NCBI GenBank assembly: GCA_963662175.1
Contig: OY759219.1
Location: 25,214,908 to 25,278,907, forward strand
Reading direction: 5' to 3'
Length of the DNA stretch: 64,000 bases
DNA from: Aradus depressus
Taxonomy: Eukaryota; Arthropoda; Insecta; Hemiptera; Aradidae
Shown here: one piece after another, positions 11,846 through 58,736 of the stretch
How positions within the stretch are numbered: the stretch's first letter is position 1
Layout of the letters: each line of letters starts with the position of its first letter
Program-made: the position numbers and the translations under genes
Notes under the pieces: generated by a model
What the model was told of the DNA's origin: nothing
The model's input: the letters and a program-made list of their open reading frames with translations, nothing else
Databases searched by the model: none

Positions 11846-12000
11846 GTCCCCACACACACACAGCACAGCGGATAGAAGACAACTGACCGGTTGACAACTG
11901 AACCACTGATGATGACGCTGCTGCTTCGAAAACCGGTTCTGGCCTAAAATAAAACAGTATTTTTTATATGTTCTATCCAACAATTGTACCCTATAGTTTC
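11846..12000 (+). mobile_element. Penelope-like terminal-repeat fragment, family H2
   Basis: It runs from a CACACACAGCACAGCGG block through the ribozyme to CTAAAATAAAACAGT. The same order is found at 57386-57497 and 37860-38000. It abuts reverse transcriptase remains of a different element. Confidence 0.6.
11902..11943 (+). ncRNA. Hammerhead ribozyme motif, family H2
   Basis: CTGATGA is at 11906-11912, then an extra T. Stem II is GACGC/GCTTC (one mismatch), with GAAA at 11928-11931. Stem III is the palindrome AACC/GGTT with no loop, and the predicted cleavage is after C11939. Stem I pairs CCA before the core with TGG after the cut. All core bases are present. Confidence 0.75.
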
Positions 12001-12065
12001 ATTTTAAAATTAACTTTTCAGTTTTTAGTTATTTAGTTATTCACTATAGGTTAGCTTAAGTTAGG

Positions 12066-12096
12066 TTTTATGACCCCGCACGGCCACCATGGCCCC
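12066..12096 (-). repeat. SINE2 head fused to SINE1 tail
   Basis: On the minus strand, CCATGGTGGCCGTGCGG (SINE2 5' end) runs straight into GTCATAAAACCTAAC (SINE1 3' end). Both pieces are short, about 15 bp each, but the join is clean. Confidence 0.5.
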
Positions 12097-12208
12097 CCAT
12101 TTTATTATCTTATGGCTACGACTTTCCTACTCATAAATTAACCTTTTAATTTAAACTTATTTTTTTAGCTATAAAATTTCAAAAAGCCACTAGAGTACTA
12201 TAAATTTG

Positions 12209-12546
12209 TTTAGTTAGTTATTATGACTCATGTCCGGGCTTTAACTACGAGGTCATATCACCTACTACCAGAGCGCTCTTTCCTCACTCTGGTGGACATG
12301 AGCCCGACTCTAATGTGGGAGTCCTAAATTTTGCCTACCCTAAATATTTATTCACCTAGGATAGTGGTCTTTAACGAGTACCTACCTGACATCGTACAGG
12401 CTCGGGACCATCGCTTAACGTCCCATCTGAAGGACGCCTTCCTCAAGATTTTATCATTTTCCAGATAAAAAACCTAAGAGCCGAGTTTCGAACTCTTGAT
12501 CTTGAGCTCAGTAGCCAAGCACGGTATCTCTGAGCTACCGGCCTAT
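12209..12546 (-). repeat. Near full-length SINE1, subfamily B
   Basis: Head, subfamily B linker (with ATTTTATCATTTTCCAG change), centre, palindromic block and AATAACTAACTAA tail are all present. The B box is damaged (GAACTC for GAACCC on the plus strand). Confidence 0.9.
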
Positions 12547-13340
12547 CGTATAATTATAATTAACAGTTCTATTGACGTAAGTGTTTGATCCGCCTTTTTA
12601 AACATGATTTTTAACTTTTAAATAAAATTATGAATTGCACATAATAAGAGAGTGGAGTGGAGAGTGTGGAGCAGAGTTCCCCCCCTACCATACGTACATA
12701 ATGGTGTGAAGGCTGGAGACGGAGACTGAAGACACGGGGGTGTGTTACCATGACAACCAGGCCTGAACCACCATGCGTGGTCTAATGGGGCCCCCCCCCC
12801 TCGCCCCCACTCCCAATTAACTTGCCCCTAATCCTCTCACAGGATAGATAATGCCCATCCCGATAATCCTCCATCTAGCTCAGCCCACCAAACCATTACC
12901 AGGAGCTCTGGATCCCTCAGGACCAACCTTCCTAACATAGCCAGACTTGAGCAACCCTAATTTGCTTATAACAGTTTAAAATTGATTATTATCTTTACAC
13001 TCGTTAAGGTAAAATAATGAGATTAGTGAAAGTTACATTGTATCTGGATATATCATACATTTTTACTTTCTTATACCTTGTGATTAAGAAAAAATGTATT
13101 GTTAAATAAAACTAAATAAATAATAATTAGATAAATAATTAATAAAAATAAACAAATTAAATAATAATAATTATATATAAACAATAAGAATTATCACATT
13201 TCCTGTAGATTTTTATAACTGGTCTTCTATTTAATTTTGATTTCTACAGTAATTTTCGAAAAGGGCCCTAGAAAAGTATCAAAAGTTCAAGACGTGTTAT
13301 TTTTAAGAAAGTGCACGTAATTTTTTAAAAAAAAATTTCA
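12547..13340. other. Gene-free stretch
   Basis: A C-rich part near 12780-12960 is followed by AT-rich DNA. No coding sequence recognised. Confidence 0.5.
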
Positions 13341-13460
13341 ATTATGAAAAGTTTGTCATTTGGGTTTCTAAAGAGATCTTCATCTTGTCTTCTAAATTTT
13401 GCAAAAATATTAAATCTAATCCAAGAATTTACGAGAACAAATATTGGGTTTATTTTCTTA

Positions 13461-13461
13461 A

Positions 13462-13492
<31 letters not shown>

Positions 13493-13645
13493 ATTTTTCT
13501 TTTTACAAATTTACATTAATAATAATAATAATAATAGTCTTTATTTATTTTTCTTTTTACAGATGTACATTAATAATAATAATAATAATAGTCTTTATTT
13601 ATTTTTCTTTTTACAAATGTACATTAATAATAATAATATTGACCG
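13461..13645 (-). repeat. Three tandem copies of a LINE 3' end
   Basis: A unit of (AAT)n, AGTCTTTATTTATTTTTC and TTTTTACAAATGTACATT occurs three times in a row (units about 56 bp). In minus orientation each is a 3' UTR end finishing in (TTA)n. It lies downstream of the LINE coding remnant at 13822-14310 on the same strand, so it is probably that element's tandemly repeated 3' end. Confidence 0.8.
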
Positions 13646-13821
13646 ACAATACTCATGGTCAAATTGACCGTCTGAGGGGTTATCTCTTCTATTTCTACTC
13701 ACACATATAATTCAAATACAAATACAAATGCAGTAATTTACAAAGTTAACCTAAATGATCCTTAAAAAAAAACTAACAAAAAAAAAACAAAAAAAAAAAA
13801 CATCTTGCTGTTTATATATCA

Positions 13822-14310
13822 CTAATAATTAAACTCTGAAACCAGCTCAAATCTATATTTCCAGGCGGCTTTGCAATAGTTAATTAAACTTTTGTAATTT
13901 CGTCCATTTACATATTCAATAAACTGAGCATAGTTTAACTCTGCTTTACTAAAATAGATGAGACGAAATTCTTTTAAGATGGGGCATACGGCAATAAAGT
14001 GAAACACATCTTCATCTTGCTTGTTATACATGGAGCAATTTCCTTAGTGTAAGAATACTTATTTAAATAAAGAAGTTCACCTTGTACCTTCAGCACCCAG
14101 CTTATCGAATTCGCATCCATCTCTGAGAAAATAACTTTATTATCTGTAACTAACTGTTTATATAAAGTATGCTTGGTACTATTTATTGATTTTAATTTAT
14201 ATTCATTAATAAATTTATCTCTTACTTTATATACAATATCATTCCCTTTTATTCTGCCATCCAAAAAGTCAGTAATATTAACATTACAGTTGTTACAAAT
14301 AGATTGCATT
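13822..14310 (-). pseudogene. Non-LTR retroelement C-terminus, one frameshift
   Basis: Two minus-strand frames join near 14035. The first reads NNCNVNITDFLDGRIKGNDI to LLYLNKYSYTKEIAPC. The second reads YNKQDEDVFHFIAVCPILKE to YRFELVSEFNY and a stop. The spacing of C, then HF and C in DVFHFIAVCP is the C-terminal zinc-like knuckle of many arthropod non-LTR elements. The clade (CR1- or Jockey-like) is unresolved. The reverse transcriptase core is missing and one base is lost or gained at the join. Confidence 0.65.
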
Positions 14311-14460
14311 TCGTTATACCAAAATACCTTTTTATCGATGACATTCCTTGTAACAATGTTTATATATCTATAAGAGTTTATTTTCTTAAATCTACATTAT
14401 TAAAATTAAAAACTAAACATTGAATCAAACAAAAAGAAAAATCTTAAAAACTCTAAATTC

Positions 14461-15003
14461 TTTTTTTTTTTTTTTTTTTATTTTTTTTTTTATTTATTTT
14501 TTTTTATTTATTTGCAATCTATATACATTTTATATAATGAGCAAATATGTTAACTCCATGCTTAAGTGTCTATGCCACATGTTGGGAGAGGTCAGCCAGC
14601 GCTGACACTCCCTAGAGACTAGTACAATGTTTAGATTTCCCTTAGAAGATCTCGAGGCCACCTCCTATTCAGACGGCGTGGAGGATTGTCAGGATGGGAT
14701 TGAGAGGATAGGACTTGTGCAAATGGGTTAGGATGGGATGAAAGTTTATTGTGGAAATTTAAGAATCGGGATTGGACGTGTTCTTGGACGGTTGGGATGT
14801 TTAGGTCTTCATGGAGTAATTTATTGGTGACGTAGAAGGGATCATTTACAATTCGACGTAGGACTTTGGACTGGAAAGCTTGGATGCTGTTTATATTGGA
14901 TTGTTTGGCTGTACCCCATAGTTCGAGGCCGTATGTCCATATTGGGCGTATTATAGTAGTCTTGTAAATGGTCAGTTTGTTGGCAGTAGAAAGTTTTGAT
15001 TTT
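14461..15003 (-). pseudogene. Jockey-like LINE ORF2 C-terminus with 3' UTR
   Basis: An open minus-strand frame without a start codon (about 15003 to 14628) reads KLSTANKLTIYKTTIIRPIW, TYGLELWGTAKQSNI, FQSKVLRRIVNDPFYVTNKL and ends PPRRLNRRWPRDLLREI stop. This is the thumb and C-terminus of a Jockey-clade reverse transcriptase, and it matches the copy at 4823-5320. The 3' UTR runs to the A-rich tail seen as the T tract at 14461-14500. It is 5'-truncated but open to its stop codon, so it is younger than its relative. Confidence 0.82.
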
Positions 15004-15655
15004 GGTCTAAACTAAATTCTTAAAACTAATTCAATTTTTTTTTTGTTTCATAATTTTGACCATTCTTGAAATTTAAGTTATATATTTCTGGGCATATATC
15101 CTGTACAGTACCTTCTTTGCTGAACAATTTCACCGTCAATTCACTTCTATTTAGTTCATCACATCTTAAGCCTAAACACCATTCTCCATATTCACTCAGA
15201 CCGTCTCCATTGACTCCAGGCCTCGACTCGTCTCTACACACACTAAAAAACAGCTGATGGTCGTGTTTTTTTTTTACTCATTTGTTTTAAAAGAAAATTG
15301 TTTTTTATAGAAAAATAAATATAATAAATTCTTTTATATTAATAATTTAATCATTTTAATGTGTGTATTTTTTTTTATACATCACAACCTATAATATAAG
15401 GAATTATTGTAATCGTGCGAAAATCCGAGATCGAGGTTTCAACTGATTTTCACGTTTCCAAGGTCCCCTGAATACGTATTAATCACTTTCGCGATAATGT
15501 CTGTTAACGCGTTGTCAAAATTGCAAACTCTCTACCACATCAACGATTGTAGCTATGGACTTGAAATATGGAATGAAGAGGTAACATTTTTTTGACTGAC
15601 AAGACACCGCCTATATTTATAACTTATAATACATAGTATGTAATTACTAATTACA
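15004..15655. other. Gene-free stretch
   Basis: AT-rich DNA with T runs near 15030 and 15265. A CGTGCGAAAATCCGAGATCGAG block near 15413 repeats one near 7537. No gene seen. Confidence 0.5.
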
Positions 15656-15659
15656 TGTA

Positions 15660-15768
15660 TGTCGCATCCGAAGGTCGGCGTGCTCAAGGCTTTATTCTCC
15701 TTCTAGAAAACAAAAATATGAACCCGCGATCTTGAGATGAGTAGACAAGCACGCTACCTTCGGACAGT
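15660..15768 (-). repeat. SINE1 5' part, degraded
   Basis: It keeps the CATCCGAAGG-CGGCGTGCTCAAGG block, a shortened linker, and a head with GCGATCTTGAGATGAGTAG. The A box is poorly preserved. Confidence 0.65.
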
Positions 15769-16890: not shown

Positions 16891-16892
16891 TA

Positions 16893-17066: not shown

Positions 17067-17239
17067 AAGTAAAAATAATAATACTAATTCTTATTTCCAT
17101 TAAACCGTAACATGGTAATAATTTTATTGCCAAAGAAATTCTACAGAGAATTTACAGGTAACGTCAATTTTTTCCATTTTTACTTAAATTTAAAATTAAT
17201 AAAATCAGCTCTTTTTTAAAAAGTTGCTTTATATTTTTA

Positions 17240-18424: not shown

Positions 18425-18747
18425 TTAGACTGACTAGAATAAATAAATATTTGAAAATATGAGTACGAAAATAATAATTTTATACAGTGGATAAACTATA
18501 TAATAAATATAGCATTAATTTTTTTTTCAATTTAATTAAAATTAAGATAATATTTTTTGATAACTTTTCCAGAAGTGCCTTTTTCACGACGACATTTCCG
18601 GACATCCCACGTCACATCCTCCTGACACACACCTTGCTAGAATATCAGTTTACCCACCTCTTCCTCTTCATTCAACGAATACAATACATCTCCAAAAAGG
18701 ACATATGTTCATCCTGTTAAAAAAAACTTTATGTTTTCAATAATTAC

Positions 18748-19464: not shown

Positions 19465-19550
19465 AAACCTCAAAAGCCGGCTAACATTAAATAATAAAAT
19501 ATGTGAGAGATCAATCTGTGTTTTTATTTTGCAACCTGTATAGCAAATAT
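19465..19550 (+). mobile_element. Penelope-like family H3 fragment
   Basis: It begins in the middle of the H3 ribozyme (CTCAAAAGCCGGCTAAC) and continues with ATAAAATATGTGAGAG and a TATTTTGCAACCTG stretch. The same order follows the ribozyme at 32930-33014. Only the 3' half of the hammerhead remains. Confidence 0.6.
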
Positions 19551-21782: not shown

Positions 21783-21990
21783 AGGAAGGTGAAGAGATGA
21801 GGCTTGTAGTCGATAAAAACAAATTTGAAGAATTTCTATCCAGTTTTCGGCACTGAGTGTGCCTTCTCCCTTACTGATAATGTGTAATGTCAATACAGGC
21901 CCTGAAGAAGGCACGCTCAGTGCCGAAAGCTTGGCAGAAATTCTACAAGTTTGTTTTTATCGACCACAAGCCTCATCTCTCCTTCCTATT
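21783..21990. mobile_element. Penelope-like inverted pair, family H5
   Basis: Left arm (21783 to about 21868) and right arm (about 21904-21990) are inverted copies sharing GATGAGGCTTGT, CGATAAAAACAAA and TTTCGGCACTGAG. The right arm carries an intact hammerhead; in the left arm its CTGAAGA core has decayed to GGGAGA. Confidence 0.7.
21898..21936 (+). ncRNA. Hammerhead ribozyme motif, family H5
   Basis: GGCC precedes the core CTGAAGA (21902-21908) and one extra A. Stem II is a perfect 5-bp GGCAC/GTGCC with loop GCTCA, and GAAA is at 21925-21928. Stem III is the palindrome AGCT with no loop. The predicted cut is after T21932, and the following GGC pairs with GCC in stem I. All core positions match the hammerhead consensus. 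Confidence 0.82.
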
Positions 21991-26204: not shown

Positions 26205-27120
26205 GAAACCCCACTAAGCCTTCATACTTGACATAAGAATGACGTGGAATCCTCTCACCAGACTGAAAAGATGAACAGACGATACAAACTGTTACTTGAC
26301 AAAAGATCAAAATTAACTGACAACAAGACGACGAATATATAACGCAATACTCAATCACCACTGGTTGATTTCTCCTCTCTTGACGTTTTAACATTGTCCT
26401 TTATTTTTTTTTTTTAGCACATTTGCTTATTCTATACTTTCTTTATACAGTTGTAAATATTTGTTTGTAAATAAAAAATACGGGTACATAAAATATCATG
26501 TCGATTGATGTTGAGCTCCTTCCCTGATCCCGCGGAAAATTAATAGATGTGGCCATGTAGGGTTTTGAATTTACATATGAAATTTTTTGCCATCTTCTCT
26601 TTATTTGCACATTTGCTTGTTGTATATATTCATTATATAGTTCAGGAAAAAAAAATGAAATTTCATGTATATACGTTCCTGTTTTCATTTTGGGAATCGG
26701 GGGGTTTCTGAATGAAATTCCGGTGAAATTTCTGACCGATTACATTCCTTTAACTTTGGGGAAGTAAAAAAAAATAAATGACATTGGTTGTGGTATAATA
26801 CATTTTTTTCACTGAATAGGGGAAAATATTTTGTTATGTTGTCATCACTTGTTAATGAGATTAAAGTTGAACCTCCTGGGATCAGAGAAGAGTGAAGAGG
26901 GGTAAAGTCACACACACAAAAAAAAACTTGGGGGAAAAAAACTGTTAAAAAAAAAAAGTTTTGTATGGTCTACCTGTACAAAAGTTTGAGGGCACGGGGA
27001 TGAGACCAAACAATGCCAGGCCTTTTTTTAGGGGGACCTATGGAACTGTAGGGAGTTGAACCCGAGAGGCGTAATGTTTCCATAATATGACTTAGCCACT
27101 CAGCTCTTTCTATGAGTTAG
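26205..27120. other. Gene-free stretch with family D remains
   Basis: It holds diverged family D pieces (for example 26510-26600 and 26730-26770, with a GGGGAAGTAAAAAAAAA tail). No gene recognised. Confidence 0.45.
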
Positions 27121-27318
27121 GGAGGATGCCGGTAGCTCAGTGGTATGCGTGCTTGCTTACTAAGCTCAAAATCGTGGGTTCGAGACCCGGCCGGGGCACT
27201 TAGTTTATTTTATCTGGGAGGTAAAATAAAATTAAGCACGCCGTCCTTCGGATGGGACGTTAAGCGATGGTCCCGAGCCTGTACGATGTCAGGTACTCGT
27301 TAAAGACCCCTGAATAAA
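27121..27318 (+). repeat. SINE1, subfamily A, 3' truncated
   Basis: Intact A box and a good B box (GGTTCGAGACCC), linker TTATTTTATCTGGGAGGT and centre up to AAAGACCCCTGAATAAA. The palindromic block and tail are missing. Confidence 0.9.
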
Positions 27319-27401
27319 CATTTATTAAAATTGTAAACAAATTACAAAATCACGTTATTTCTGGTTTTATTCAAACTTGGGAAAATTGCGTCTACTGTAT
27401 A

Positions 27402-32048: not shown

Positions 32049-32929
32049 TATCGCATATCCGGAAGAACAATGACGTAAGTGTAAAAACTGTTATTCCGAG
32101 TTACACCGATTTAAAGAAATTCATTTTGGAAAATTAAATATAGCGCCCGGGGATGACTTAGAGTAATCTTAGGTCAAATAAGAGATAATGCCTAGTCATA
32201 CATGGTTCTGTAGCATTTCCACTTTATTTCCTAAATGGCAGGCGACAGAAGAGGGCATAAATTAGTGATCTTACAGTTACCTCATTGTTCTTCCAAACAA
32301 AATAAAACAATTCGGGTATTTAAAACTCAAGCTAATAATAATTGTATTTCGGTTTATAATTCTTTAATATTATAATTAGTTTATTCTTTCTTTCGGTAAA
32401 ATTCTTTTGCAATTTCTCGTTTCACTGCACCACCCTGTATTTATAATAGAAAATGATTGTACTGAACTTAAACTAATAATTAAACCATAATCTGAATATA
32501 AGAAAAACTTAAAATAAACTACTAAAAAAATATAGAATTTTTATAATTAGGAATAATATTAGATTTTAACAAACTCCGTGTATCGGTTTTTTTTGTTTTG
32601 TTGGTTTTTGTAATCAGGGAAATCAATCTGTCAGACGTTATAAACTCAGTGCCACTTCAAATTTTACAAAATTTATTAGTCAGAAATTTCAGAAGAGGGA
32701 CCATGTTCGTAAGTTATATTTCATAGATGCATTGTCCATAAGGCGAAAATCACTTATACGTCTGAAAAAAAATTAAGACAAATGTCCTTATAACTGCCAT
32801 AAGTAAGTAATAATTGTATATGTAAATTCAAAACCCCATAAGGACGACACCTACCAATTTTCAGCCGAATTGGCTCAACACAAAATCCCTAATGTAATAA
32901 ATGTATGAGTAAACCACCTTACTGACAGG
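32049..32929. other. Gene-free stretch
   Basis: AT-rich. A short family D piece in minus orientation lies at about 32810-32905 (ATAAGGACGACACCTACCAA). No gene recognised. Confidence 0.5.
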
Positions 32930-32976
32930 TTGTCAAATAAGATGAAGTCTGACCTCTCACAAATTTTATTGATATT

Positions 32977-33014
32977 TGCTAGCCGGCTTTCGAGGTTGCC
33001 CTCATCATCAGGCA
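32977..33014 (-). ncRNA. Hammerhead ribozyme motif, family H3
   Basis: On the minus strand TGC precedes CTGATGA, an extra T, and stem II GAGG/CCTC with a GCAA tetraloop. GAAA leads into the loopless palindrome AGCC/GGCT. The predicted cut follows A (plus-strand position 32980), and the following GCA pairs with TGC in stem I. The stems and core are all intact. Confidence 0.82.
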
Positions 33015-33163
33015 GTTTGATAAAATAATTTCGAAAATAACATAATTAAAATGTTTTAAATTGTTTTAATTTTTAATTGTTAAAGTTGTTATTTTTTAGA
33101 TATTTTTTTATTTATTTATTAAAACATTTTAATTATGTTATGTCCAAAATTATTTTTTCAGAC

Positions 33164-33202
33164 TGCTTGATGATGAGGGCAACGTTAAAAGCCGGCTAGC
33201 GA
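33164..33202 (+). ncRNA. Decayed hammerhead, family H3
   Basis: This is the inverted partner of 32977-33014. The core C has become T (TTGATGA), stem II CCTC is CGTT, and GAAA is AAAA. It should not cleave. Confidence 0.6.
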
Positions 33203-33250
33203 ATATCAATAAATACTGTGAGGTCAGACTACATTTTATTTTACAACCTG

Positions 33251-34149
33251 TGAAAGTTATTAGACATTAGAATTAAAATGTTTAGGGTTTAAGTTGGATT
33301 TTATATATTTTTTTATAGTTTATTTTGTGTGAAGGTTTATGATGGAAGGCAAGGTCATAGAAAAATGGAAACAGGTTACGACCTCCTCGTAGATAATCCT
33401 CATAACCTCGGCGTCCCCTTTCATCCTCGCTCTGAGTAAATTGAAATATTATCATAAAGAGATGGGGGTGAGGGGGGGGGGGGGATGTTGAGGGGTGGGA
33501 GGCTCAACTCCCTCAACGATAGAGATGGCCCCAAGGCCCAGAACAGGGGGGCCGTGGCTATGTGAGGTAGAGTACCCCCCCCCTTCTCATGTGTTAGCCC
33601 CCAAAATCAATATATCCATGGTTTCCAACAGGGTGAGGGTGGGGTCCAGGGCTGGCCTCTCACAGGGGTGGGGGAAGTTCAGAGTTATACATCATATAAC
33701 ACACATAGTGAAGTTGGGGAGGGGGGGATCAATAAGCCTTCCTATTGGTTCCGTCCATACCCCCACCACCTTTAATAAAACAATAACCTCTCCTACCCCT
33801 CCTTCCACCTCTCCCCTCCCCCTCCCCCACTCCACACACATCCCTTATATTTATAAATAAAAATATTAAATTGTTATTCTGCTAAAGAAAATCTTTTGTT
33901 ATTCATTTTATTTTTTCCCTCGCTTTCTCATTTTGATTTATTTAATTTTTTTATTATTATTTCATATTATTTTTTCTCTTTTTATCATAACAAATATTTA
34001 TGTATATATCGCTACCGTCAAAAAAGCCAACTTTTCATAGGAAAGAAAACCTATTTTTATTTTATTTTATTTGGTTGGATCTATTAAATTCAAATTTTGT
34101 CTGCTTATGAGGGCTTTTGATATCTTAAGAAACATTTCTATACTTCTTG
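33251..34149. other. Gene-free stretch with G- and C-rich tracts
   Basis: A G run at 33471-33483 and G/C-rich DNA to 33840 are followed by T-rich DNA. The 121-codon plus-strand frame (33495-33860) is proline/serine-rich with no recognisable features. Confidence 0.45.
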
Positions 34150-34189
34150 AATGTAAAAAAAAAATATATATATGAAATATAATAAACAG

Positions 34190-34530
34190 TAGATGTTGAT
34201 TAGCGACTGTAGATTATAATTGTAGGAATATTGAGGGTCAGTCAAAGATGGAAAAAAACACTATTCAGATGCCAACGTTTCGATATATTTTATATCATCA
34301 TCAGGGCCTACAAACATGGGGGGGGAAATCAAGATTAGAATCAAAAATAAACAAAAATTGTTTTTGTTGATAAACATTACTGAACGTTAAAAATACATTA
34401 TAACAGTTTCAATTTTTAACTTGTTATAATGTATTTTTAACGTTCAGTAATGTTTATCAACAAAAACAATTTTTGTTTATTTTTGATTCCAATCTTGATT
34501 TCCCCCCCATGTTTGTAGGCCCTGATGATA
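34190..34530. mobile_element. Penelope-like inverted pair, family H1
   Basis: Left arm (34297-34405) and right arm (34422-34530) are near-perfect inverted copies around a 16-base loop. The left arm continues outward through an intact minus-strand hammerhead and the family H1 flank (34190-34260). The right arm is cut inside the ribozyme, just after CTGATGAT. Confidence 0.8.
34269..34308 (-). ncRNA. Hammerhead ribozyme motif, family H1, intact
   Basis: On the minus strand GGCC precedes CTGATGA, an extra T, stem II GATATA/TATATC with an AAA loop, and GAAA. Stem III is the loopless ACGT, the cut follows T, and GGC pairs with GCC in stem I. The core is complete. Confidence 0.8.
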
Positions 34531-34559
34531 ATAAACAGTGATATATAAATACACTTTTG

Positions 34560-36905: not shown

Positions 36906-37619
36906 GGCGCTACGTAGAACCTGGGCCTCCGCAAACGATCTTCCGCCATTCTTCTCTATCCTCGGCCTCCCGACTCCATCTTCTCACACCCATCATTCTG
37001 AGGTCGTCCTCCAGCCAACGTAAGCGGGGTGTACCTCTTCTTCTTTGTCCTCCCGGGTGTCCCTTCAGTATCCTCCTCGGCAATCTGTCTGGTTCCATCC
37101 CCAGCCATCATAGCCGCCCCTGCTTCACTAAGGCCACCAGGTCCGGGCTCTTGTACAGGTCCCTCAGCTCCCTATTGGTCCGTATCCTCCATCTATCCCC
37201 CTCTGGAGTAAGGCCGTATATCTTTCTCAATACCTTCCTCACCCACGTATTGAGTAAGACTTCGTCCCTCCTAGTCAGGACCCAGGTTTCACTCGCATAT
37301 GTGACGACCGGTCTCAGGACTGTTTTATAAATTGCTATTTTGGCGTCTCGGGACACAGTCCTCGATCTGAGCCCCTTCTCCAGTGACCGGTAGCATCTAT
37401 TCCCCGGCCGTTATCCTCGCTTTGATGTCTTCTGTAACGTCGTTCCTTTCCGTGATAACACCCCCCAGGTACTTGAAGCTATCCACCCGGTCAAACCTGT
37501 AACCTCCAAGTACGAGTTCCTTGTCTTTTACTTCCTTCCTCGTGGTTCTCATATTGGTTTTTCCCTCGTCGACAAGAAAACCAAGCTTCCTGGACTCCTC
37601 GTCAAAAGCCTCTATATAA
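36906..37619 (-). pseudogene. RTE/CR1-like LINE reverse transcriptase C-terminus
   Basis: Across frames it reads EAFDEESRKLGFLVDEGKTN, FDRVDSFKYLGGVITERND, VSRDAKIAIYKTVLRPVVTY, ASETWVLTRRDE, VRKVLRKIYGLTPEGDRWRI, RTNRELRDLYKSPDLVALVK, then MEPDRLPRRILKGHPGG and LRWLEDDLRMMGVRRW. This order (KYLG, IYKTVLRPV-YASETW, RTN-EL-LY, RRG-PRLRW-DD) is that of many insect non-LTR elements of the RTE type. Breaks: one frameshift near 37408 and an in-frame TGA near 37108 where CGA (Arg of a RLRWLGH-like motif) is expected. The YADD palm is absent, so the copy is 5'-truncated and dead. Confidence 0.8.
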
Positions 37620-37769: not shown

Positions 37770-38035
37770 GTCATACAAATAACAGAATAACTAGAACCTG
37801 TTTTCAACGCAACAGCATCATCTACAGTGGCACATCCCACCCACACAGCGGACCAGTAGTCCATTAACCTCTACGCTGTATGGGTGGGATGTACCGCTGT
37901 TGCCACTGATGATGTACCACTGATGATGACGCTGTTGCATTGAAAACAGGTTCTGGTCATAAATAAAACAGTGGGAAGGCGTCTTTTATTTTTATGAGAA
38001 ATCTTGTCCCACTTTCGTACTATCACAAATTAATA
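37770..38035. mobile_element. Penelope-like inverted pair, family H2, diverged
   Basis: A left arm near 37785-37850 and a right arm near 37890-38000 share CATCCCACCCACACAGC and CAGAACC-GTTTTCAACGC motifs. The right arm continues with AAATAAAACAGTGGGAAGGC as in the 57 kb copy. Confidence 0.7.
37916..37957 (+). ncRNA. Hammerhead ribozyme motif, family H2, partly decayed
   Basis: ACCA, CTGATGA, an extra T and GAAA are intact, and stem I (ACCA/TGGT) is perfect. Stem II GACGC/GCATT has one wobble and one mismatch; stem III AACA/GGTT has lost its inner pair. The minus-strand partner (37794-37836) has its core broken (CTGTAGATGA). Confidence 0.6.
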
Positions 38036-39102
38036 TGAAAACTCAACATCGATTTTTTTGACTACCCCCTATACTTCGTACAACTTGGTATGATAGATGG
38101 GTGTTGGTAAAGGAGGGCGTGCTAGTATACTGAACGGAGGTAGACAGACAAGTCTGAGAATCCTATCCTATCAGGGATACTTACAGAACCGGGCTCATTT
38201 TGTTCCTCTTCAGAGCACTTATTACCTAGATTAAGTATGTTCTCTCAGAGACTCATTCATTTTAAATACGATTCGACATAATCATGACAATATAAGCAGC
38301 TTTTCTACTTAAATGTTGTATCTTTAATGTTGCTCCTGTTTATGTCAGAGGTTTTTTTTTTTTTTTCAAGGGTTTATTATAAATTAAGGAAAAAAAGCTC
38401 TTGAGCTTAGGAGCAAGACAAAAATGACGAAAGAGCAATCTTTGCCATCACTTGCTACATCTTTCCTTTGCCCGATTTGGCTAAAAATCAATAGGTGTCG
38501 TTCTTAGAGCGTTCTGGGTACACTTCTAAAATCATTCATTCTATCAAGACTTCACAAGCGCACACAAGCAGACAGACACACTTTATTTTTCCTCTCTACT
38601 TCGTATAGCTAGTGAAGTAAACATAATTAAAGTAAGAATGTATGCATTCGTTTAAGAGCATTTTCATCTACAATTATAAGAAAGAGCAAAGAGAAACGTT
38701 ATATTAAACTGTTGAAGAATTTAATTTCCTCAACGTATTTTTACGACTTACTCAATTTTTCTCACAATGTTATTAACTTTTAAAATTAGATGTATCGTAT
38801 ATCAAAAATATGGGTTTCGAAACAATATTTCCAGACAGTTTTCGGCATGTACCTCTTGCTCAGGACCTGAAGTAAATTGGTCTAAATGTTTTGTCTATTT
38901 TTGGACAAAATCTAAGTATGACGTCTCCATCTCATATTTCAGGTTCATAGCTACAATCGTTTTTGAGTTGGAGCGTTCACAATCTTCAAATCAAATACAC
39001 AATCACAAACAGACAGACATCATCGCAAGAATGGTCAGAACATATTCAGCGGATTTTGAAATGTGAAAATCGATTGAAAAAAAGTGAGAAAATTAATGAA
39101 TA
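38036..39102. other. Gene-free stretch
   Basis: It holds a T run at 38349-38365 and a family D piece at 38440-38560. The 99-codon frame at 38767-39066 shows nothing I recognise. Confidence 0.45.
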
Positions 39103-39114: not shown

Positions 39115-39422
39115 AGAGGGCGCCGGTGGTATGGATGCTTGCCTTCTGAGCTCAAGGTCGTGGGTTCGAAACCCGACCGAGGTCCTTAGTTTAGTTTATC
39201 TGGGAGGTAAAATAAACTTAAGCACGCCCTCCTTCGGATGGGACGTTAAGCGATGATCCCGAGCCTGTACGATGTCAGGTACTCGTTAAAGTACACCTGC
39301 CCTAGGTGAATAAAAATTTAGGGTAGGCAAAATTTAGGTCCACCAGAGTGAGGAAAGAGCGCTCTGGTAGTAAGCGATATGTCCTCGTAGTTAAAGCCCG
39401 GGCATGAGTCATAATAACTAAC
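39115..39422 (+). repeat. SINE1, first unit of a local array
   Basis: Nearly complete; part of the A box is deleted (GCCGGTGGTATGGATGC). It carries subfamily A linker but an AATAACTAAC tail. A 12-bp TSD TATAATTTTTTG flanks it (39103-39114, 39423-39434). Confidence 0.9.
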
Positions 39423-39458
39423 TATAATTTTTTGTTTTCATATTTATTATGTAATATT

Positions 39459-39713
39459 GAGGGCGCTGGTAGCTCAGTGGTATGCGTGCTTGCCTTCTGA
39501 GCTCAAGGTCGTGGGTTCGAAACCCGACCGAGGTCCTTAGTTTAGTTTATCTGGGAAGTAAAATGAACTTAAGCACGCCCTCCTTTGGATGGGACGTTAA
39601 GCGATGGTCCCGAGCCTATACGATGTCAGGTACTCGTTAAAGACCCCTGCCCTAGGTGAATAAAAATTTAGGATAGGCAAAATTTAGGTCCACCAGAGTG
39701 AGGAAAGAGCGCT
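39459..39713 (+). repeat. SINE1, second array unit, 3' truncated
   Basis: Head and centre are intact and share with the third unit the private changes GAAGTAAAATGAACTTAAGC and CTCCTTTGGATGG. It stops at AAAGAGCGCTTGG, inside the palindromic block. A 24-bp stretch after the TSD separates it from the first unit. Confidence 0.9.
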
Positions 39714-45950: not shown

Positions 45951-45951
45951 T

Positions 45952-47356: not shown

Positions 47357-47939
47357 ACTCTCTTACTCCGTTGGCGACGAACCCTGAAGATCCTTAGCCG
47401 CCCACACTAGCCTTCTCCACCGCGATCTGTCGTGCGCCACCGGTCGCCAGTTCACCACGTGGTGTTCCACAGCATCCTTCTTCACCAGGTCAGCCTATGG
47501 TCGGGTGTTGCCAGAAGATGTCCCTCAGCTCCCTGTTGGTTCTGATCCTCCACTCTTGGGTTTCTCTATCCTTGACCGGACCTGCTATCTTCCTCAGCAC
47601 TTTATTTTCAAACGTCTGGAACCGTTTCTCCAGATGTGAGGTCAGGGTCCAGGTTTCACACCCATAGATCAGAACGGGCTTTACCATGGAGCTGTAGATC
47701 CTATACTTCAGGTTCCTTGACAAGGCTCTGGATCGTAGCAGCTTGATGACAGAGAAATACGCTCTTTGGGCCTGCAGAAGTCTTCTGTCCACCTCCTCCA
47801 GCATCGAGTTGATGCTAGTTACCGTGGACCCGAGATATCTGAAGTTCTCAACTCTTGGGAAGGAGAAGGTCCCCACATTTAATTCCTGCCCCAGATGAAT
47901 ATTCTTACTGACTATAAGGTAGTCGCTCTTGTCGACATT
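47357..47939 (-). pseudogene. RTE/CR1-like LINE C-terminus with internal deletion
   Basis: The minus strand reads NVDKSDYLIVSKNIHLGQEL, FPRVENFRYLGSTVTSINSM, KYRIYSSMVKPVLIYGCETW, LEKRFQTFENKVLRKIAGPV and WRIRTNRELRDIF. After a frame change and deletion near 47495 it continues ADLVKKDAVEHHVVNWRPVA and RSRWRRLVWAAKDLQG. The order is the same as at 36906-37619, but the sequences differ enough to be another family. It has no palm motif and is not functional. Confidence 0.8.
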
Positions 47940-48675
47940 AAGTTAACATATAAATAAGTAATAAAAACATTGAGGTAACTTCAAAGATTCCAGCTGATAT
48001 CAAGTTGAAAACAATACAAAATGAAGTTAACCCATTTAAGTAAGTTTTCCAAGAGGGAGGAAAAACTGACTGTAATTTGTAGCTACTTAAAAGTTGACTC
48101 CCCCGTTGGTTCATCCCCTTTCTACTTTCTTTTTCATCGTAAATTACCAACCCGTCAACCTACTTCATCCCCTCTCCCTAGTAGTAGCGGTAGGTCGGGG
48201 GATAAATTGCTCTTTAAAATTCTCCAATGAAGAGGCACAGCGTTTGTTTTTTTTTTTTTTTCTTTCAACTTTCTTGAATGAACCAGTCATCAAAACTCCC
48301 TTGAGGGGAGAAGAATGAAAAAAAAAATAATTTATCGAGAATCACCTTCATTCATTCTTTTATACAATTATCTAACTTTGAACTTGACCTGTTTTTTTCT
48401 TGTTTTTGTTTTTATTTTCATTCATTTATTCTACTTTTCTCTTAGCTTCCTGTATAATGAACGACCTGTTGAAAGTAAGACAGGAAAGATTTACATTAAT
48501 TAATACAGAAATATTTTCTTTAAAAGAACAGCGATTCTTTATTTAGTATTTTCTAATTTTACAAACTTATTGTCCAGGCCAGTTCAAAAAGAAAACTTGA
48601 CTAACTCAAAATGTGTATAGCTAACAAAATAATAGTTCAAAAAAAACATTACTTACACTCACTAATAGTATTTTA
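47940..48675. other. Gene-free stretch
   Basis: AT-rich with T runs (48247-48261). No coding sequence recognised. Confidence 0.5.
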
Positions 48676-48785: not shown

Positions 48786-48888
48786 CGTACGAGAACACAA
48801 TTCATAAAACAGCTGACTGACTCGTCTGCAAGTGATTACTTGATCTGAAGCTATCTTTTAGATGAATAACAATGTTTAGAAATATTTT

Positions 48889-49238
48889 GAGGGCGCCGGT
48901 AGCTCAGTGGTATGCGTGCTTGACTTCTGAGCTCAAGAACGTGGGTTCGTAACCCGACCGAGGCCCTTAGTTTATTTTATCTGGGAGGTAAAATAAACTT
49001 AAGCACGCCGTCCTTCGGATGGGACGTTAAGCGATGGTTCCGAGCCTGTACGATGTCAGGTACTCATTAAAGACCCCTTTCCTAGGTGAATAAAACATTT
49101 AGGATAGACAAAATTTAGGGCTCCCACAATAGAGTCGGGCTCATGTCCACCAGAGTGACGAAAGAGCGCTCTGGTAGTAGGCGATATGACCTCGTAGTTA
49201 AAGCCCGGGCATGAGTCATAAAACCTAACCTAACCTAA
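48889..49238 (+). repeat. Full-length SINE1, subfamily A, CCTAA tail
   Basis: A complete 350-bp copy with good A and B boxes. The tail reads AAAACCTAACCTAACCTAA. The TSD AAATATTTT lies at 48880-48888 and 49239-49247. It is one of the least diverged copies. Confidence 0.95.
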
Positions 49239-52115: not shown

Positions 52116-52127
52116 CTCCTGACTGTG

Positions 52128-52974: not shown

Positions 52975-53400
52975 TAATAATAATAATAATAATAAAAAAT
53001 GTATTTCCGTTAAACCAACACATGGTAATAGGATACGTCAAAAGAATTTATACATTAAGATAGCTTATAGATTAGATTTATAACTACTTGAGTCTAACAC
53101 ATCTATGATTAGTAGTAACAACAAAACTATTAAAAAAAGTAAAATGAAATTAATAAAAACTGAACAAATAAATACTTAAAAATATATGAGTACATAAACA
53201 AAATTAATACAAGATACGTTTATAATAAATAGACACATTTTTCAATTTACTAAAAATTAAGATAACTATTTAAAAAATAAAAAAAACTCTTCGGAAGTGT
53301 CTTTATCCCAACGATGTTTCGGGACGTTCTTACGTCCCATCATCAGGTCCCAATGTGCGAGATATAGAAAAGAAAGAAAACAATGTAACTATAACAATAT
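52975..53400 (-). mobile_element. Penelope-like family P copy with hammerhead
   Basis: An uninterrupted copy. On the minus strand it runs from the ribozyme through AAATTGAAAAATGTGTC, TTTTAATAGTTTTGTTG and TTGACGTATCCTATTACC to an (ATT)n end at 52977-52996. It serves as the reference for the split copies at 17070-18625 and 61144-62155. Confidence 0.7.
53307..53350 (-). ncRNA. Hammerhead ribozyme motif, family H4 (in P)
   Basis: On the minus strand GGAC precedes CTGATGA, an extra T and a perfect 6-bp stem II GGGACG/CGTCCC with loop TAAGAA. GAAA follows. Stem III is ACAT where ACGT is expected from the relative at 18570-18600. The cut follows C, and GTT pairs with GAC (one wobble) as stem I. 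Confidence 0.7.
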
Positions 53401-54584: not shown

Positions 54585-54868
54585 GGTTAGTTATTGTGAC
54601 TCATACCCGGGCTATAACTACGAGGTCATATCGGCTACTACCGCTGGTAGACAAGCCCGAATCTACTATGAGAATCCTAAATTTTGCTTACTTAGGTTCA
54701 GTTAGGGTAGGGGTCTTTAAGGAGTACCTATCGTAGAGGCTCGGGACCATCGCTTAACATTCTATCCGAAGGACGTCATGGTGAAGTTTCAGGGCCTCTG
54801 CCGGGTTCCGAACCCGCCATCTTGAGCTCAGCAGACTAGCAAGCAGCCTCTGAGTTACTGGCGCCCTC
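54585..54868 (-). repeat. SINE1, near full length, subfamily B tail
   Basis: Tail TTAGTTATTGTGACTCATAC, palindromic block with a deletion, centre, short linker and complete head ending GGCGCCCTC. Confidence 0.88.
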
Positions 54869-54960
54869 AACACTGGTAAATATCAAACATATAATAAAAT
54901 GAATTAAAGAAAATAATTATATTCACTACTGAATATAAAAAAATATTACTGAGAAGAAAG

Positions 54961-55075
54961 TACTGTCGTAACAGAGGCGTTTTTCTGTTCAGGACGAGCT
55001 GTGAAGGTATTTCCGAACCTTTGGGATTTGAGGGTAAACAAAGAAATGTAAATTTTAAATTAATTTGAGCAAAGA
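54961..55075 (+). repeat. Repeat X, first copy
   Basis: TACTGTCGTAA and TTCCGAACCTTTGGGA, with GAAGGT between, recur in the same order at 59994-60110. The nature of this repeat is unknown. Confidence 0.55.
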
Positions 55076-55217
55076 CAATCTATATATTTCAAGATGAGAA
55101 GATCAGACGGGGTAGATATATTGAGAGGGCTGGTGTTTACACCTAGGGACCTATGCATCCAATGCTCTTTTTTGCCTTCCCTATTAGCTCCACCTACTAG
55201 GAGTCCTATATATTATC

Positions 55218-55365
55218 TAAGGTCTTTAACGAGTACCTGACATCGCACAGGCTCATGATCCTCGCTTAATGCCCCCCCCCCCCCCCCCCCCCCCCGAAGG
55301 ACGGCCTGTTCAAGGTTTTTACTTTTCCCAGATAAAAACCTACGGGCCTCGTCCGGGTTTCGAAC
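55218..55365 (-). repeat. SINE1 fragment with an internal poly-C run
   Basis: Centre CTTTAACGAGTACCTGACAT, then a C run of about 28 bases (about 55269-55296) that replaces the CATCC of the CGTCCCATCCGAAGGACG block, then linker and GGGTTTCGAAC. It abuts R1-like coding DNA. Confidence 0.85.
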
Positions 55366-55369
55366 GAAA

Positions 55370-55799
55370 TGGAAAATCACATGTGCTAATTTAGATCCGA
55401 ATACCGGACGAAAATTGAGAGTAAATTTTACAAAATGCAGCGCAGCCATGGAGATAGTTGTGTAGGCTTTGGTAATCCTGAGGAGGGCTGCTCTCTGAGC
55501 TTGTAGTAGTATCGTATGCCGTAATTTGGAGGGGTGAACCCACCATCCGGCAGCGGCGTATCTTGCTGCGGCCTCGAAAACCCCGGTATAAATAGTTTTA
55601 CCCGCGGAGTAGCCGAGGCCCCACGTCGCTCGGGCTAGGTAGCTCAGAGCGTTAAAGGTAGCTGTTGTCCTATCCTTGATGGCAACAACGTGGGGCATGA
55701 CGTTGAATCCCGGCCCAATCCCCACACCCAGGTACGTAATCACGGCCGGAAAATCAACGCGTCGGCCGTGAACTGCAAGAACCAGGGGGTGGCGGGGGT
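55370..55799 (-). pseudogene. R1-clade LINE reverse transcriptase fragment
   Basis: The minus strand reads HPLVLAVHGRRVDFPAVITY, LGVGIGPGFNVMPHVVAIKD, FNALSYLARATWGLGY, AGKTIYTGVFEAAARYAAAG and LLQAQRAALLRITKAYTTIS. YLG, LARATWGLGY, TIY-GVFEAA and RAALLRITKAYTT-S are characteristic of R1-clade elements after the reverse transcriptase palm. The frame is open for this whole part and then runs into SINE1. R1-type elements occur in arthropods, which helps place the organism. Confidence 0.88.
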
Positions 55800-56370
55800 T
55801 TCTGACCGATTAAAAAACTTTTCTTATAAATTCTGGGAACAAATTCTCCAAGAGAAACAAGCACAAGGATTCATGGGGTCCTGACACCATTGGAGTGTCC
55901 CCTTGGATGCTCCAGTTGCCCCCCTCCCCTCTCATACATATGAATGCCCGGCCCTGCTCATGATTGACATGGCTTGACCCCGGAAGGGGGTGACCATCAC
56001 GACTGCCCCATGGGTGGTCCAATGAGCACCTTCCATTTCCGGATTCAACGTTCCGGTTCCAACCCCCTCCCCACCACTCCATATGCTCTCATTCTCATTG
56101 TGTTCCCCTATGAGAAGGGTTTTTGAGAATTTTTTTTTCTATGAATTTTTATTTTTCTACCCTTTCATCGTCATCTGTCCACTCTGAGGACAACCCTAGC
56201 CCCACTTCAAAGTATAGTGAATATATACGAGGATTATCAATTTTGTTTCGGAATTATATATTACACCTATAGGCTAGGAAAGTAAAACAAACGGTGATCT
56301 CTTTATATATTAGTAAGATATATATGCAGAGATTATATATTTAGAGAAAAAAAAAATTCGGTGAATCACC
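55800..56370. other. Gene-free stretch
   Basis: GC-richer near 55900-56080. No gene recognised; frames to 90 codons are shadows without family features. Confidence 0.45.
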
Positions 56371-56478
56371 GACTAAATTTTGTGTCGATATATTCATTAT
56401 CAATAAGATTTCTTAGTTGCGCCTCCCTTTGATTCTCCATTTCCCTTTGCCCGATTTGGCTGAAAATCAATTGGTATA
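56371..56478 (+). repeat. Dispersed repeat family D, target of a SINE1
   Basis: GGTGAATCACCGACTAAATT, GTGTCGATATATTC and GATTTGGCTGAAAATCAAT are family D blocks; the next SINE1 cuts it. Confidence 0.6.
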
Positions 56479-56680
56479 TAGGTTAGGTTTTATGACTCAT
56501 GCCCGGGCTTTAACTACGAGGTCATATCGCCTACTACCAGAGGGCTCTTTCGTCATTCTGGTGGACATAAGCCCGACTCTACTCTGTGGGTGTCCTAAAT
56601 TTTGTCTACCCTAAATTTTTATTCACCTAGGGCATTGGTTTTTAGCGAGTACCTGACATCGTACAGGCTCAGGACCTGAT
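56479..56680 (-). repeat. SINE1, 3' half, subfamily A tail
   Basis: Tail GGTTAGGTTTTATGACTC, palindromic block and centre to CAGGCTCAGGACC. The linker and head are missing. Confidence 0.88.
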
Positions 56681-57244
56681 ATATATATCTATAACTCACC
56701 ATTAACTTTAATCAGAATTGAAAGCAATTTAAGGGCTTACCCACGTATGTTGTGCGGGGGGGAAAAGATGTTCTACTGTAACTTAATAGTTTGATTTTAG
56801 GTTCGCATTATTTATCTGACTTTATGAAAAGTATTAGAAGTTATAACACCTTCTTAAAGAACTAAAATAAGATAACCTTATGCCAACGAATAACGATGGG
56901 TACATATACGACAGCTTAGAGTTACCAACCTGCTTGAAGTTACTAATCTGCTAAAGTTACTAATCTTCTTAGAGTTACTAACTAGTGTGAAGTTACTCCG
57001 GGCGAAGCCGGGTAAAAAAAAAAAAATATATATATATATACCTATATAGTTTATATTTATATATAAATATATATATATATAATATCGTGTCGAAGAATTT
57101 TTTTACCGGAAGTTTTTTTTTTCCAAATTTCTGACCAATGACGTAAATTCCCCCCCTGGGAGCGTTCAAATGGTTGCTCGACAAAAACTGAAAACAGCAT
57201 TGCATAGCTCAAATGCTAAAAATATCAAAATAAATTTAAGAATA
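56681..57244. other. Gene-free stretch with a Helitron-like hairpin
   Basis: Repeats of AGTTACTAA at 56920-56990 lead to ACTCCGGGCGAAGCCGGGTA, a Helitron-style hairpin without CTAG, then an A run and TA-rich DNA. No gene seen. Confidence 0.45.
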
Positions 57245-57296
57245 ACAAGAATACTAATAGAAATAAAAGACGTTGTCTTCCCACTGTTTTATTTAT

Positions 57297-57338
57297 ACCA
57301 GAACCGGTTTTCGACGCAACAGCGTCATCATCAGTGGT
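57297..57338 (-). ncRNA. Hammerhead ribozyme motif, family H2, intact
   Basis: It is identical to the plus-strand motif at 57415-57456. ACCA, CTGATGA, an extra T, stem II GACGC/GCGTC with loop TGTT, GAAA, stem III AACC/GGTT without loop, cut after C, then TGGT closing stem I. Confidence 0.85.
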
Positions 57339-57414
57339 TCATCCCACCCACACAGCACAGCGGTTGGTCAGCGGCCAGTTATCTTCCAACCGCTGTGCTG
57401 TGTGGGTGGGATGA

Positions 57415-57456
57415 ACCACTGATGATGACGCTGTTGCGTCGAAAACCGGTTCTGGT
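57415..57456 (+). ncRNA. Hammerhead ribozyme motif, family H2, intact
   Basis: CTGATGA is at 57419-57425, an extra T at 57426, stem II GACGC (57427-57431) with GCGTC (57436-57440), and GAAA at 57441-57444. Stem III is AACC/GGTT (57444-57451). The cut follows C57452, and TGGT pairs fully with ACCA (57415-57418). Confidence 0.87.
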
Positions 57457-57497
57457 ATAAATAAAACAGTGGGAAGACAACGTCTTTTATTTCTATT

Positions 57498-58089
57498 AGA
57501 AATCTAGTCCCACAACATCTTACTATCACATATGAATAACAAGAATAACTTTGAAAATCAATCTGAAATGAAATAGGCCTTCAATAAAGCTAATTTTTCA
57601 GACAGTCCCCCTTGTCGAACAAAAAATTCGTTGAGTTGGAGTATCTGGTTCGAAGCTTCCAATGGCAGCTGATAAAATATTACCAATGATATGCTAGTAG
57701 CCAAAATGGCTACAAGAAAAAAGGGATTAAAATATCATTAACATACATACATACAAATTAGGGGAAGGTGTTCATCGCCACAGGGAGATAAATCTGGACA
57801 AAAAGCAGACAGGGTCTTAATCCTGGAGGGTGTGTTGGCACTACCTGGCCATGATCAGCTGCTGTCCTGTATGGAGAGTATTGATAGCGATTTGAATAGA
57901 ACCGATGCAGAGGGGAAACCTCATTAGTGAAAAAAAACCTTCTCTATTTCCGCATTACGATTTGCATCCGAAACCGGATTAGGTTGCAGCTAGAGAAGAA
58001 ATCGGAATTTACATTCCGAAGGGAAGTATATATGTGGTCAGAAATTTCATTTGAATTTTCAACGGATTTTTATGTTTCCCTGCCCCCAT
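57498..58089. other. Gene-free stretch
   Basis: No supported gene. A-rich and CATACATA-type tracts occur near 57735. Confidence 0.45.
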
Positions 58090-58322
58090 ATACCAAAAAT
58101 GGAAAAAACATATGGTCGGTGAAAGATCTAAAAATCAATAGTTGACATTCATAAGGACATCTGAATCTTCTTACTAAATTTTGTGTCGATACATTCATTA
58201 CATTGACAGTTATAAGAGTTTTTTAGTTGTCTCCTCTGTATCCCCTCCTCCTATTCTGGTCGATTTCACTGAAAATTAATGTACCTTCCTTCGCAGTTTT
58301 GAATTTAAATATAAAATTTCAT
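58090..58322 (+). repeat. Dispersed repeat family D, cut by a SINE1
   Basis: Blocks AAAATCAATAGTTGACATTC, GTGTCGATACATTCATTAC and TTGAATTTAAATATAAAATT are well preserved. Confidence 0.65.
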
Positions 58323-58629
58323 GAAGGCGCCGGTAGCTCAGAGGTAGCCTGCTAGCCTACTGAGCTCAAGATCGCGGGTTCAAAATTGGGCAGAGGCTGG
58401 AAAAATCTTGAGCACGACATCCTTCGGATGGTACATTAAGTGATGGTCTCAAGCCTGTACGATGTTATTTAGTCGTTAAAAGCTCCTACCCTAGGTGAAT
58501 TCAAATTTAGGGTAGGGTAGGTTCAAATTTAGGACTCCCATAGTAGTCGGGCTTATGTCGAGCGATGATCGAGCGCTCTGGTAGTAGGCGATATGACCTC
58601 GTAGTTAAAGCCCGGGCATGAGATAATAC
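58323..58629 (+). repeat. SINE1, near full length
   Basis: A box CGGTAGCTCAGAGGTAGC, damaged B box GGTTCAAAATTG, shortened linker, centre with a duplicated GGTAGGGTAGG, palindromic block and GGGCATGAG. Confidence 0.88.
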
Positions 58630-58639
58630 TAAAAAATGT

Positions 58640-58677
58640 ATGGGAGTACTTTCAGTATTGCTACCATCTTCAGCAAA
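58640..58677 (-). ncRNA. Hammerhead ribozyme motif, family H6, partly decayed
   Basis: CTGAAGA, extra T, stem II GGTA/TACT (closing pair G-T wobble), GCAA loop, GAAA and stem III AGTACT are present. Stem I keeps only its first pair. Confidence 0.6.
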
Positions 58678-58698
58678 TACTATAGTATTTGTTAAGTC

Positions 58699-58736
58699 GT
58701 GGCTGAAGATGGTAGCAATACCGAAAGTACTCCCAT
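58699..58736 (+). ncRNA. Hammerhead ribozyme motif, family H6, intact
   Basis: GTGG precedes CTGAAGA (58703-58709), an extra T, and stem II GGTA/TACC with a GCAA tetraloop. GAAA is at 58723-58726, and stem III is the loopless palindrome AGTACT. The cut follows C58732, and CCAT pairs with GTGG (three pairs and a wobble). Confidence 0.85.

Follow-up and report, generated by a model that had tools for sequence, protein, structure and literature searches.

Minimal hammerhead motifs of a known kind in Aradus depressus, with fresh copies that hint at element insertion by copying RNA onto both cut strands

A stretch of 64,000 nucleotides from the hemipteran Aradus depressus (assembly GCA_963662175.1, contig OY759219.1, positions 25,214,908 to 25,278,907; the whole stretch is referred to as the window) carries several sequences with the core and stems of hammerhead ribozymes, which raises the question of what these motifs belong to and how they came to lie where they are. 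We conclude that they very probably are dimer-type minimal hammerheads in the pseudo-long terminal repeats (pLTRs) of endonuclease-containing Penelope-like elements (PLEs), and that the pairs in which they occur are likely to be pLTR-only insertions made from two target-primed complementary DNAs (cDNAs).

Hammerhead motifs and head-to-head palindromes in the window

Both strands were scanned with a strict descriptor (CUGANGA, 0 or 1 nucleotide, stem II, GAA, an A...U stem III, H17 and a stem I of at least 3), which yielded six intact minimal type I hammerheads: in each of them the core is perfect, stems I and II can pair, stem III closes and a UH occupies the cleavage position. When a stem II of at least four pairs and a loopless stem III were required, there were six real matches against a total of three over 1000 first-order Markov shuffles, and 539 permuted cores scanned over the real window gave one match in total. 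With one core mismatch allowed, the window held 12 matches and the shuffles a mean of 1.2 and a maximum of 4; the six extra matches in the window were excluded from all claims. One pattern scan of viral contigs gave no match. The six strict sites are:

57297-57338, minus strand: family A minimal hammerhead, intact, left arm (descriptor match and control)
57415-57456, plus strand: family A minimal hammerhead, intact, right arm, cleavage predicted after C57452 (descriptor match)
58699-58736, plus strand: family B minimal hammerhead, intact (descriptor match)
34271-34307, minus strand: family C minimal hammerhead, intact (descriptor match)
32977-33014, minus strand: family D minimal hammerhead, intact (descriptor match)
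21899-21935, plus strand: family E minimal hammerhead, intact, with A as the extra nucleotide (descriptor match)

A sequence-only reading of the window had counted eight intact or near-intact sites in six families. Six of these eight have the invariant core CUGANGA...GAAA and the UH and stand under the strict descriptor; the sites at 11902 and 53307 are decayed, such that five families (A to E) are intact and family F is represented by decayed copies only. At 53307, stem II is kept, the stem III sequence ACAU allows one pair and stem I reads GAC/GUU. The second family F copy has ATGT where the 53307 copy reads ACAT, and both versions look like the decay of one ACGT. Five decayed copies lie beyond the first listing (1356-1392, 37916-37957 and 33164-33201 on the plus strand, 58641-58676 and 18523-18629 on the minus strand). 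Outside the palindromes described below, the window contains:

11898-11958, plus strand: decayed family A copy with a stem II mismatch, GACGC/GCTTC (the 11902 site)
53310-53349, minus strand: family F hammerhead with decayed stem III and weak stem I (the 53307 site)
18523-18629, minus strand: second decayed family F copy
1347-1471, plus strand: single copy of family C, its hammerhead (1356-1392, plus) with an altered stem I
19466-19539, plus strand: family D fragment that ends at the same 3' base as the arms of the family D palindrome

Stem III is a loopless palindrome of 4, 6 or 8 nt in all six intact sites (AGCU, AACCGGUU twice, AGUACU, ACGU, AGCCGGCU), and hence cannot be closed by a single molecule, though it can be by two; judged from these sequences, the intact hammerheads should work only as dimers. 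Predicted homodimers lie 2.2-7.9 kcal/mol below two monomers in folding energy, with the stem III palindrome being used by the predicted dimer in families A and D only. Minimal hammerheads of PLEs (Cervera and de la Pena 2014; Luense, Weinberg and Breaker 2017) are reported to be type I, to have little or no stem III, to make a palindromic contact that requires a dimer, and to reside in the pLTRs of PLEs in many dispersed copies (PMC7761336, PMC6155905, PMC6466107), all of which resembles the situation here. A possible difference is one extra nucleotide after A9, between A9 and 10.1, which is present in 6/6 intact copies of the window (U in five, A in one) and absent from a further palindromic family elsewhere in the genome (locus L040, at 7403 on the minus and 7487 on the plus strand). 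An extra core nucleotide between A9 and 10.1 is reportedly also found in the hammerhead of the chrysanthemum chlorotic mottle viroid (CChMVd; de la Pena and Flores 2001), though this is an unrelated infectious RNA.

Across the six families, stems I and II pair in 42/42 cells with two to four pair types at 6/7 positions. Since the stems were entered by hand and chosen because they paired (family F including a G-U pair), the pairing itself is not independent evidence and only the variety of pair types counts. With this restriction, the earlier statement that the stems pair despite differing in sequence holds. The stronger one, that this is covariation rather than shared ancestry, is not established. 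Among 32 family D copies, nine of them intact, there is no compensatory double change, which for this family is the outcome that the sequence-only reading had named as speaking against itself if found genome-wide, and the stem variation of this family looks like decay of insertions. Families A and D match one another weakly (E 0.0015-0.011 in a 4.5-kb search, 0.73 and 2.5 within the window), and these matches include the hammerhead core itself.

What had been missed is that all five loci with intact sites are head-to-head palindromes whose copies point outward. Among the 16 inverted repeats in the window of at least 40 nt and with a spacing of up to 500 nt, six contain a hammerhead or lie next to one, five at these loci and one at a decayed family A copy. 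Adjacent copies of the same family within 400 nt, counted over the loci examined and the window, are oriented outward in 19 cases, inward in one and on the same strand in none. Both ribozymes are intact only in the palindrome of family A; the second one is decayed in B and D and cut off inside the core in C and E. The palindromes and the features attached to them are:

57254-57533: family A head-to-head palindrome, two inverted pLTR copies with the ribozymes outward; left arm short, right arm with a tail
57240-57253, plus strand: family A target site duplication, left copy, 14 bp, which may include a chance extension
57534-57547, plus strand: family A target site duplication, right copy
58630-58746: family B head-to-head palindrome; target duplication not found
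58641-58676, minus strand: family B hammerhead, left arm, stem I unpaired
34191-34530: family C head-to-head palindrome, its right arm broken off within the hammerhead core
34182-34190 and 34531-34539: possible 9-bp target duplication of family C
32925-33251: family D head-to-head palindrome, the two arms sharing their terminal 3' base; target duplication not found
33164-33201, plus strand: family D hammerhead, right arm, decayed
21783-21988: family E head-to-head palindrome; left arm without the start of the core, target duplication not found
37787-38042: older family A palindrome with a decayed hammerhead (37916-37957, plus)

When each palindrome is folded as one RNA, the ribozyme disappears into a long duplex in families A, B, D and E, and only in part in family C; on the basis of these energies alone, poor cleavage is predicted for a transcript that spans the palindrome in full. 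Two details of arrangement may be added. The right arm of family C, which ends in the core, adjoins the possible 9-bp duplication, which would fit a start of reverse transcription within the ribozyme. The only inward pair (L013, 226-1110) consists of two family D palindromes tail to tail, which would fit insertion of one next to the end of another.

Association with Penelope-like elements across the genome

The sequence-only reading had named PLEs as carriers of such ribozymes and had suggested looking for a GIY-YIG domain upstream of genome-wide copies; this link holds. A GIY-YIG search of the genome (698 Mb in 74 contigs) returned 1852 candidates, of which 150 were scored and listed, all 150 above the curated cut-off. 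The open frames at these matches reach 859 amino acids, which leaves room for a telomerase-like reverse transcriptase domain, and some matches lie 2819 bp apart on the same strand, as tandem units of pLTR and open reading frame (ORF). A minimal hammerhead was found downstream of 7/9 GIY-YIG ORF ends examined. Four of these are family D, intact in L052, L053 and L054 and near-intact with a two-pair stem I in L049; in L048, L051 and L055 the hammerhead belongs to a second family with three-pair stems and the stem III ACCGGT. No hammerhead was found downstream of the ORF end in L039 (1.1 kb searched) and L056 (0.9 kb). In L049 the order is the end of the GIY-YIG ORF, a palindrome, the family D hammerhead, the family D 3' end with its tail and then the next frame, which is led by an ATG 150 nt after C3 and has an in-frame stop about 40 codons on. 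The pLTR of a GIY-YIG element matches the family D copies of the window at E 2e-14 and 1.9e-11. Family A matches these pLTRs weakly (E 0.0015-0.011; 4.5-kb search), and family B comes close, again weakly, to the second PLE family (E 0.00087; 4.5-kb search), with no family B match at E 0.01 in a wider search. We infer that families A, C, E and F are Penelope as well.

With respect to known PLEs, inverted head-to-head pLTRs with a palindrome at the pLTR start are described for endonuclease-containing Penelope elements of the rotifer Adineta vaga (PMC3846280). There, target duplications of 8-10 bp occur in some copies and none in others, and one inverted pLTR may carry an optional 31-bp tail; here, the pairs consist of the pLTR only, the tail is ~36 nt long and sits on exactly one arm (21/21 in family A), and the flanking repeats are mostly 12 bp. 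Hammerheads have no occurrence in the main text of that paper (PMC3846280). Inverted head-to-head pLTRs, a single optional tail and a short target duplication, which are traits of PLEs, are thus all found in A. depressus. The Poseidon PLE PAc of Anolis carolinensis likewise has a hammerhead at the boundary of pLTR and ORF, although its ORF starts at stem II (PMC11167929), whereas the ATG-led frame of family D begins 150 nt after C3. The idea that the extra U might make an AUG, as in PAc, was dropped, given this distance in family D and the A in family E.

It had also been suggested that six families in 64 kb make an unusually diverse population, and this did not hold up. In an arbitrary sample of 200 kb (20 pieces, each 10 kb long, taken by round coordinates from nine contigs), strict matching gave six hammerheads, or 30 per Mb, against one match in 20 shuffles of the whole sample, and all six families recurred, with 25 family matches at an E value of at most 0.001 (10 for A, 2 for B, 1 for C, 9 for D, 1 for E and 2 for F), several of which miss the hammerhead and extend over downstream sequence only. 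The window, with its six strict sites and 17 family matches, is 2-3 times denser, but it was chosen for these motifs. The six families are ordinary in this genome. Genome copy searches scored 40 of 618 candidates for family A and 40 of 2841 candidates, such that copy numbers are lower bounds.

Fresh family A insertions and the accounts of their origin

At least nine copies of family A, including that of the window, are identical over 123 nt and lie on six contigs. Insertions as recent as this allow ends, tails, junctions and flanking repeats to be read much like the products of an experiment. Among 40 family A loci listed, 33 hold an outward pair and seven list one copy; 21 palindromes, namely that of the window and 20 that were fetched, out of the 33 paired loci, were examined. 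The paired hammerheads lie 62-92 nt apart in the 20 pairs listed, too close for an ORF to fit between them. In 21/21 palindromes, a tail of ~36 nt is present on exactly one arm, the tailed arm ending at 76-80 of the reference and the short arm at 41-48. A direct repeat of 8-15 bp also borders each of the 21, its length being 12 bp in 12 cases. As a control, 420 mismatched flank pairs share 0-9 bp, and 19/21 real repeats are longer than all of these, those of L073 (8 bp) and L062 (9 bp) not being above this maximum. The centres fall into 18 junction classes, a fully symmetric centre occurring in three palindromes and another being shared by two; some junctions have an overlap and some added bases, the classes being defined by exact matching, under which a point mutation close to the centre can make a loss or insert seem larger than it is (as in L060, L065, L068 and L074). 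In family D, five pairs have exactly one tail, in a count whose loose pattern also matched stretches other than family D ends, which were left out by eye, and whose random null reached a score of 32, presumably owing to its origin in the same loci.

The arms themselves carry sequence variants. In seven of the 21 family A palindromes both arms share a variant that is also seen at another locus, in three (L070, L072, L073) one arm has another family variant than its partner, and two further variants each turn up in a single arm at two loci (one in L064 and L075, the other in L071 and L074). This pattern suggests that the arms mostly come from one source, and perhaps sometimes from two RNAs, unless mutations recurred.

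A sequence of steps that would give rise to such insertions is the following. The RNA of the element would start just upstream of the hammerhead, and reverse transcription would begin within the RNA, not far downstream, at either of two sites ~36 nt apart, with cDNA synthesis running to the 5' end of the RNA. At a staggered cut of ~12 bp, each strand would prime one cDNA, and the two cDNA ends would then be joined head to head, probably by end joining, with few bases lost or gained. The product would be a palindrome with two outward-pointing hammerheads. Two cDNAs, one per strand of the staggered cut, would account for the outward pairs, the single tail, the flanking repeat and junctions that are formed afresh, and the fresh insertions favour two priming events per insertion. 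The proposal shares with PAc that both strands are cut and extended by the PLE protein and that reverse transcription starts internally at two sites, there in the first part of the ORF (PMC11167929). How PLEs insert is an open matter, as the rotifer paper calls for experiments to separate the models (PMC3846280) and the Anolis paper leaves later insertion steps unvalidated (PMC11167929). We found no statement of a two-cDNA model for natural PLE insertions in the literature, a weak negative, with mostly open-access papers covered.

The alternative that survives best, unlikely as we consider it to be, is self-priming, in which one transcript (antisense in the published proposal) folds back and is copied, giving a hairpin before or during insertion. 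It has been proposed for rotifer Penelopes because of palindromes at inverted junctions (PMC3846280), and the variants common to both arms in 7/21 palindromes look as if one arm had templated the other. However, a fold-back predicts equal outer ends, whereas in all 21 palindromes one end is tailed and the other short, each at its own fixed point. Extra bases at several junctions likewise argue against it, as do the differing arm variants at three of 21 loci, though parallel mutation could produce the latter.

A second possibility, for which we see very little room, is that the repeats are metazoan retrozymes, i.e., tandem repeats that are non-autonomous and release RNA circles by means of their type I hammerheads. 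Short non-coding repeats with type I hammerheads are indeed what is found here, and those of amphibian retrozymes also act as dimers (PMC7229834). However, retrozymes are head-to-tail tandem repeats of ~150-450 bp, and no same-strand neighbours within 400 nt were seen in the loci examined; the same motif adjoins GIY-YIG ORFs; and none of 75 family A matches, in a list that favours long ones, starts within 5 nt of the ribozyme cleavage site.

A palindromic master, akin to a miniature inverted-repeat transposable element (MITE) and multiplied whole, through either a DNA transposase or retrotransposition, would fit the near-identical arms, the short length and the flanking repeats, and a similar centre is seen in older family A copies as well as a fully symmetric one in three of the 21 young ones. 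Such a master predicts equal centres, but 18 centre classes among 21 near-identical palindromes show this to be unlikely, and we hold it to be even less probable than retrozymes. The two ends differ, and a single copy is listed at 7/40 loci. Family A lacks the same terminus on both sides and the fixed interior of a MITE or other transposon with terminal inverted repeats. Finally, that the sites are chance matches to a short motif has next to no probability, for although Rfam scores nothing and shuffles give 1.2 matches per window once a core mismatch is allowed, the two controls refute it for the six strict sites and the motif recurs across dispersed families.

For the reading as pLTR-only PLE insertions from two target-primed cDNAs, a number of points count on the other side. 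The Rfam hammerhead models, which the sequence-only reading had proposed as a check, find none of its sites in the window: nothing reaches gathering scores, and the 18 matches down to E 10 (10 weak microRNA matches on the palindromes, 8 elsewhere) include no hammerhead. We put this down, presumably, to the absent stem III loop and the short stem I, and a match to these models is not a defining trait of the minimal class. The link to an ORF is weak for family B, and families A, C, E and F have none. In the window itself, neither a six-frame search with motif patterns nor tblastn with one GIY-YIG ORF detected a PLE ORF, and the same single query gave no GIY-YIG similarity in 20 family D loci (L009-L028). 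The PLE ORFs are identified by their GIY-YIG domain. With respect to the pairs, the B, D and E palindromes of the window have no target duplication, perhaps because of their age; for seven of the 40 family A loci the list contains no second copy; the 21 palindromes come from a selection among the top-scoring loci, chiefly those whose partner is long; and two family D pairs (L026 and that of the window) have no tail on either arm, two more (L013, L019) being unreadable. Lastly, in the Anolis assay the start site did not differ between the strands (PMC11167929), which leaves the strict one-tail rule unexplained.

The ribozyme and other repeats of the window

If cleaved RNA had served as template, the arms would begin at the cleavage site, which none of the 75 matches does, and ribozyme mutants did not affect insertion in the Anolis assay (PMC11167929). 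Taken together, this argues that cleavage is not needed for these insertions, and the insertions seen bear no trace of it. Of the young family A arms, 30/42 retain an intact motif, which may be explained by their youth. Judging by the fresh insertions, the RNA that becomes inserted is probably not cut by the ribozyme. It is conceivable, though we would not expect it, that insertion is bilateral, with a protein dimer that carries two template RNAs and primes a cDNA on each strand of the staggered cut from two different start sites, and that the stem III palindrome mainly holds these RNAs together, much like the dimer site of retroviral RNA, cleavage being secondary. If true, this would explain both the retention of a poorly cutting, dimer-only ribozyme in these families and the many head-to-head pairs with exactly one tail.

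Apart from the hammerhead families, numerous copies of a dispersed repeat that includes a tRNA-like stretch (GGTTCGAAACCC) lie on the two strands of the window (for example at 5613-5966, 27118-27350, 39126-39708 and 48880-49235). The repeat is probably a short interspersed nuclear element and accounts for several direct-repeat families of the window. The family B palindrome lies directly at the end of one such copy (58564-58630). By eye, six fragments resemble proteins of non-LTR (non-long terminal repeat) retrotransposons:

11546-11872, plus strand: RVT_1 in Pfam
14634-15011, minus strand: nothing found in Pfam
37111-37410, minus strand: nothing found in Pfam
47493-47942, minus strand: sub-threshold DUF6451 in Pfam
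55216-55809, minus strand: nothing found in Pfam
61561-62121, minus strand: RNase_H in Pfam

The first of these, a reverse transcriptase fragment 30 nt upstream of the 11902 site, was considered as part of a PLE and rejected on its YADD motif, which we take to indicate a non-LTR element. A protein search with the RNase H fragment matched 23 proteins. Near the latter, 61258-61372 and 62072-62153 (both minus) closely resemble the AT-rich sequence at 53081-53273, downstream of the family F hammerhead, and this family F copy may border another repeat.

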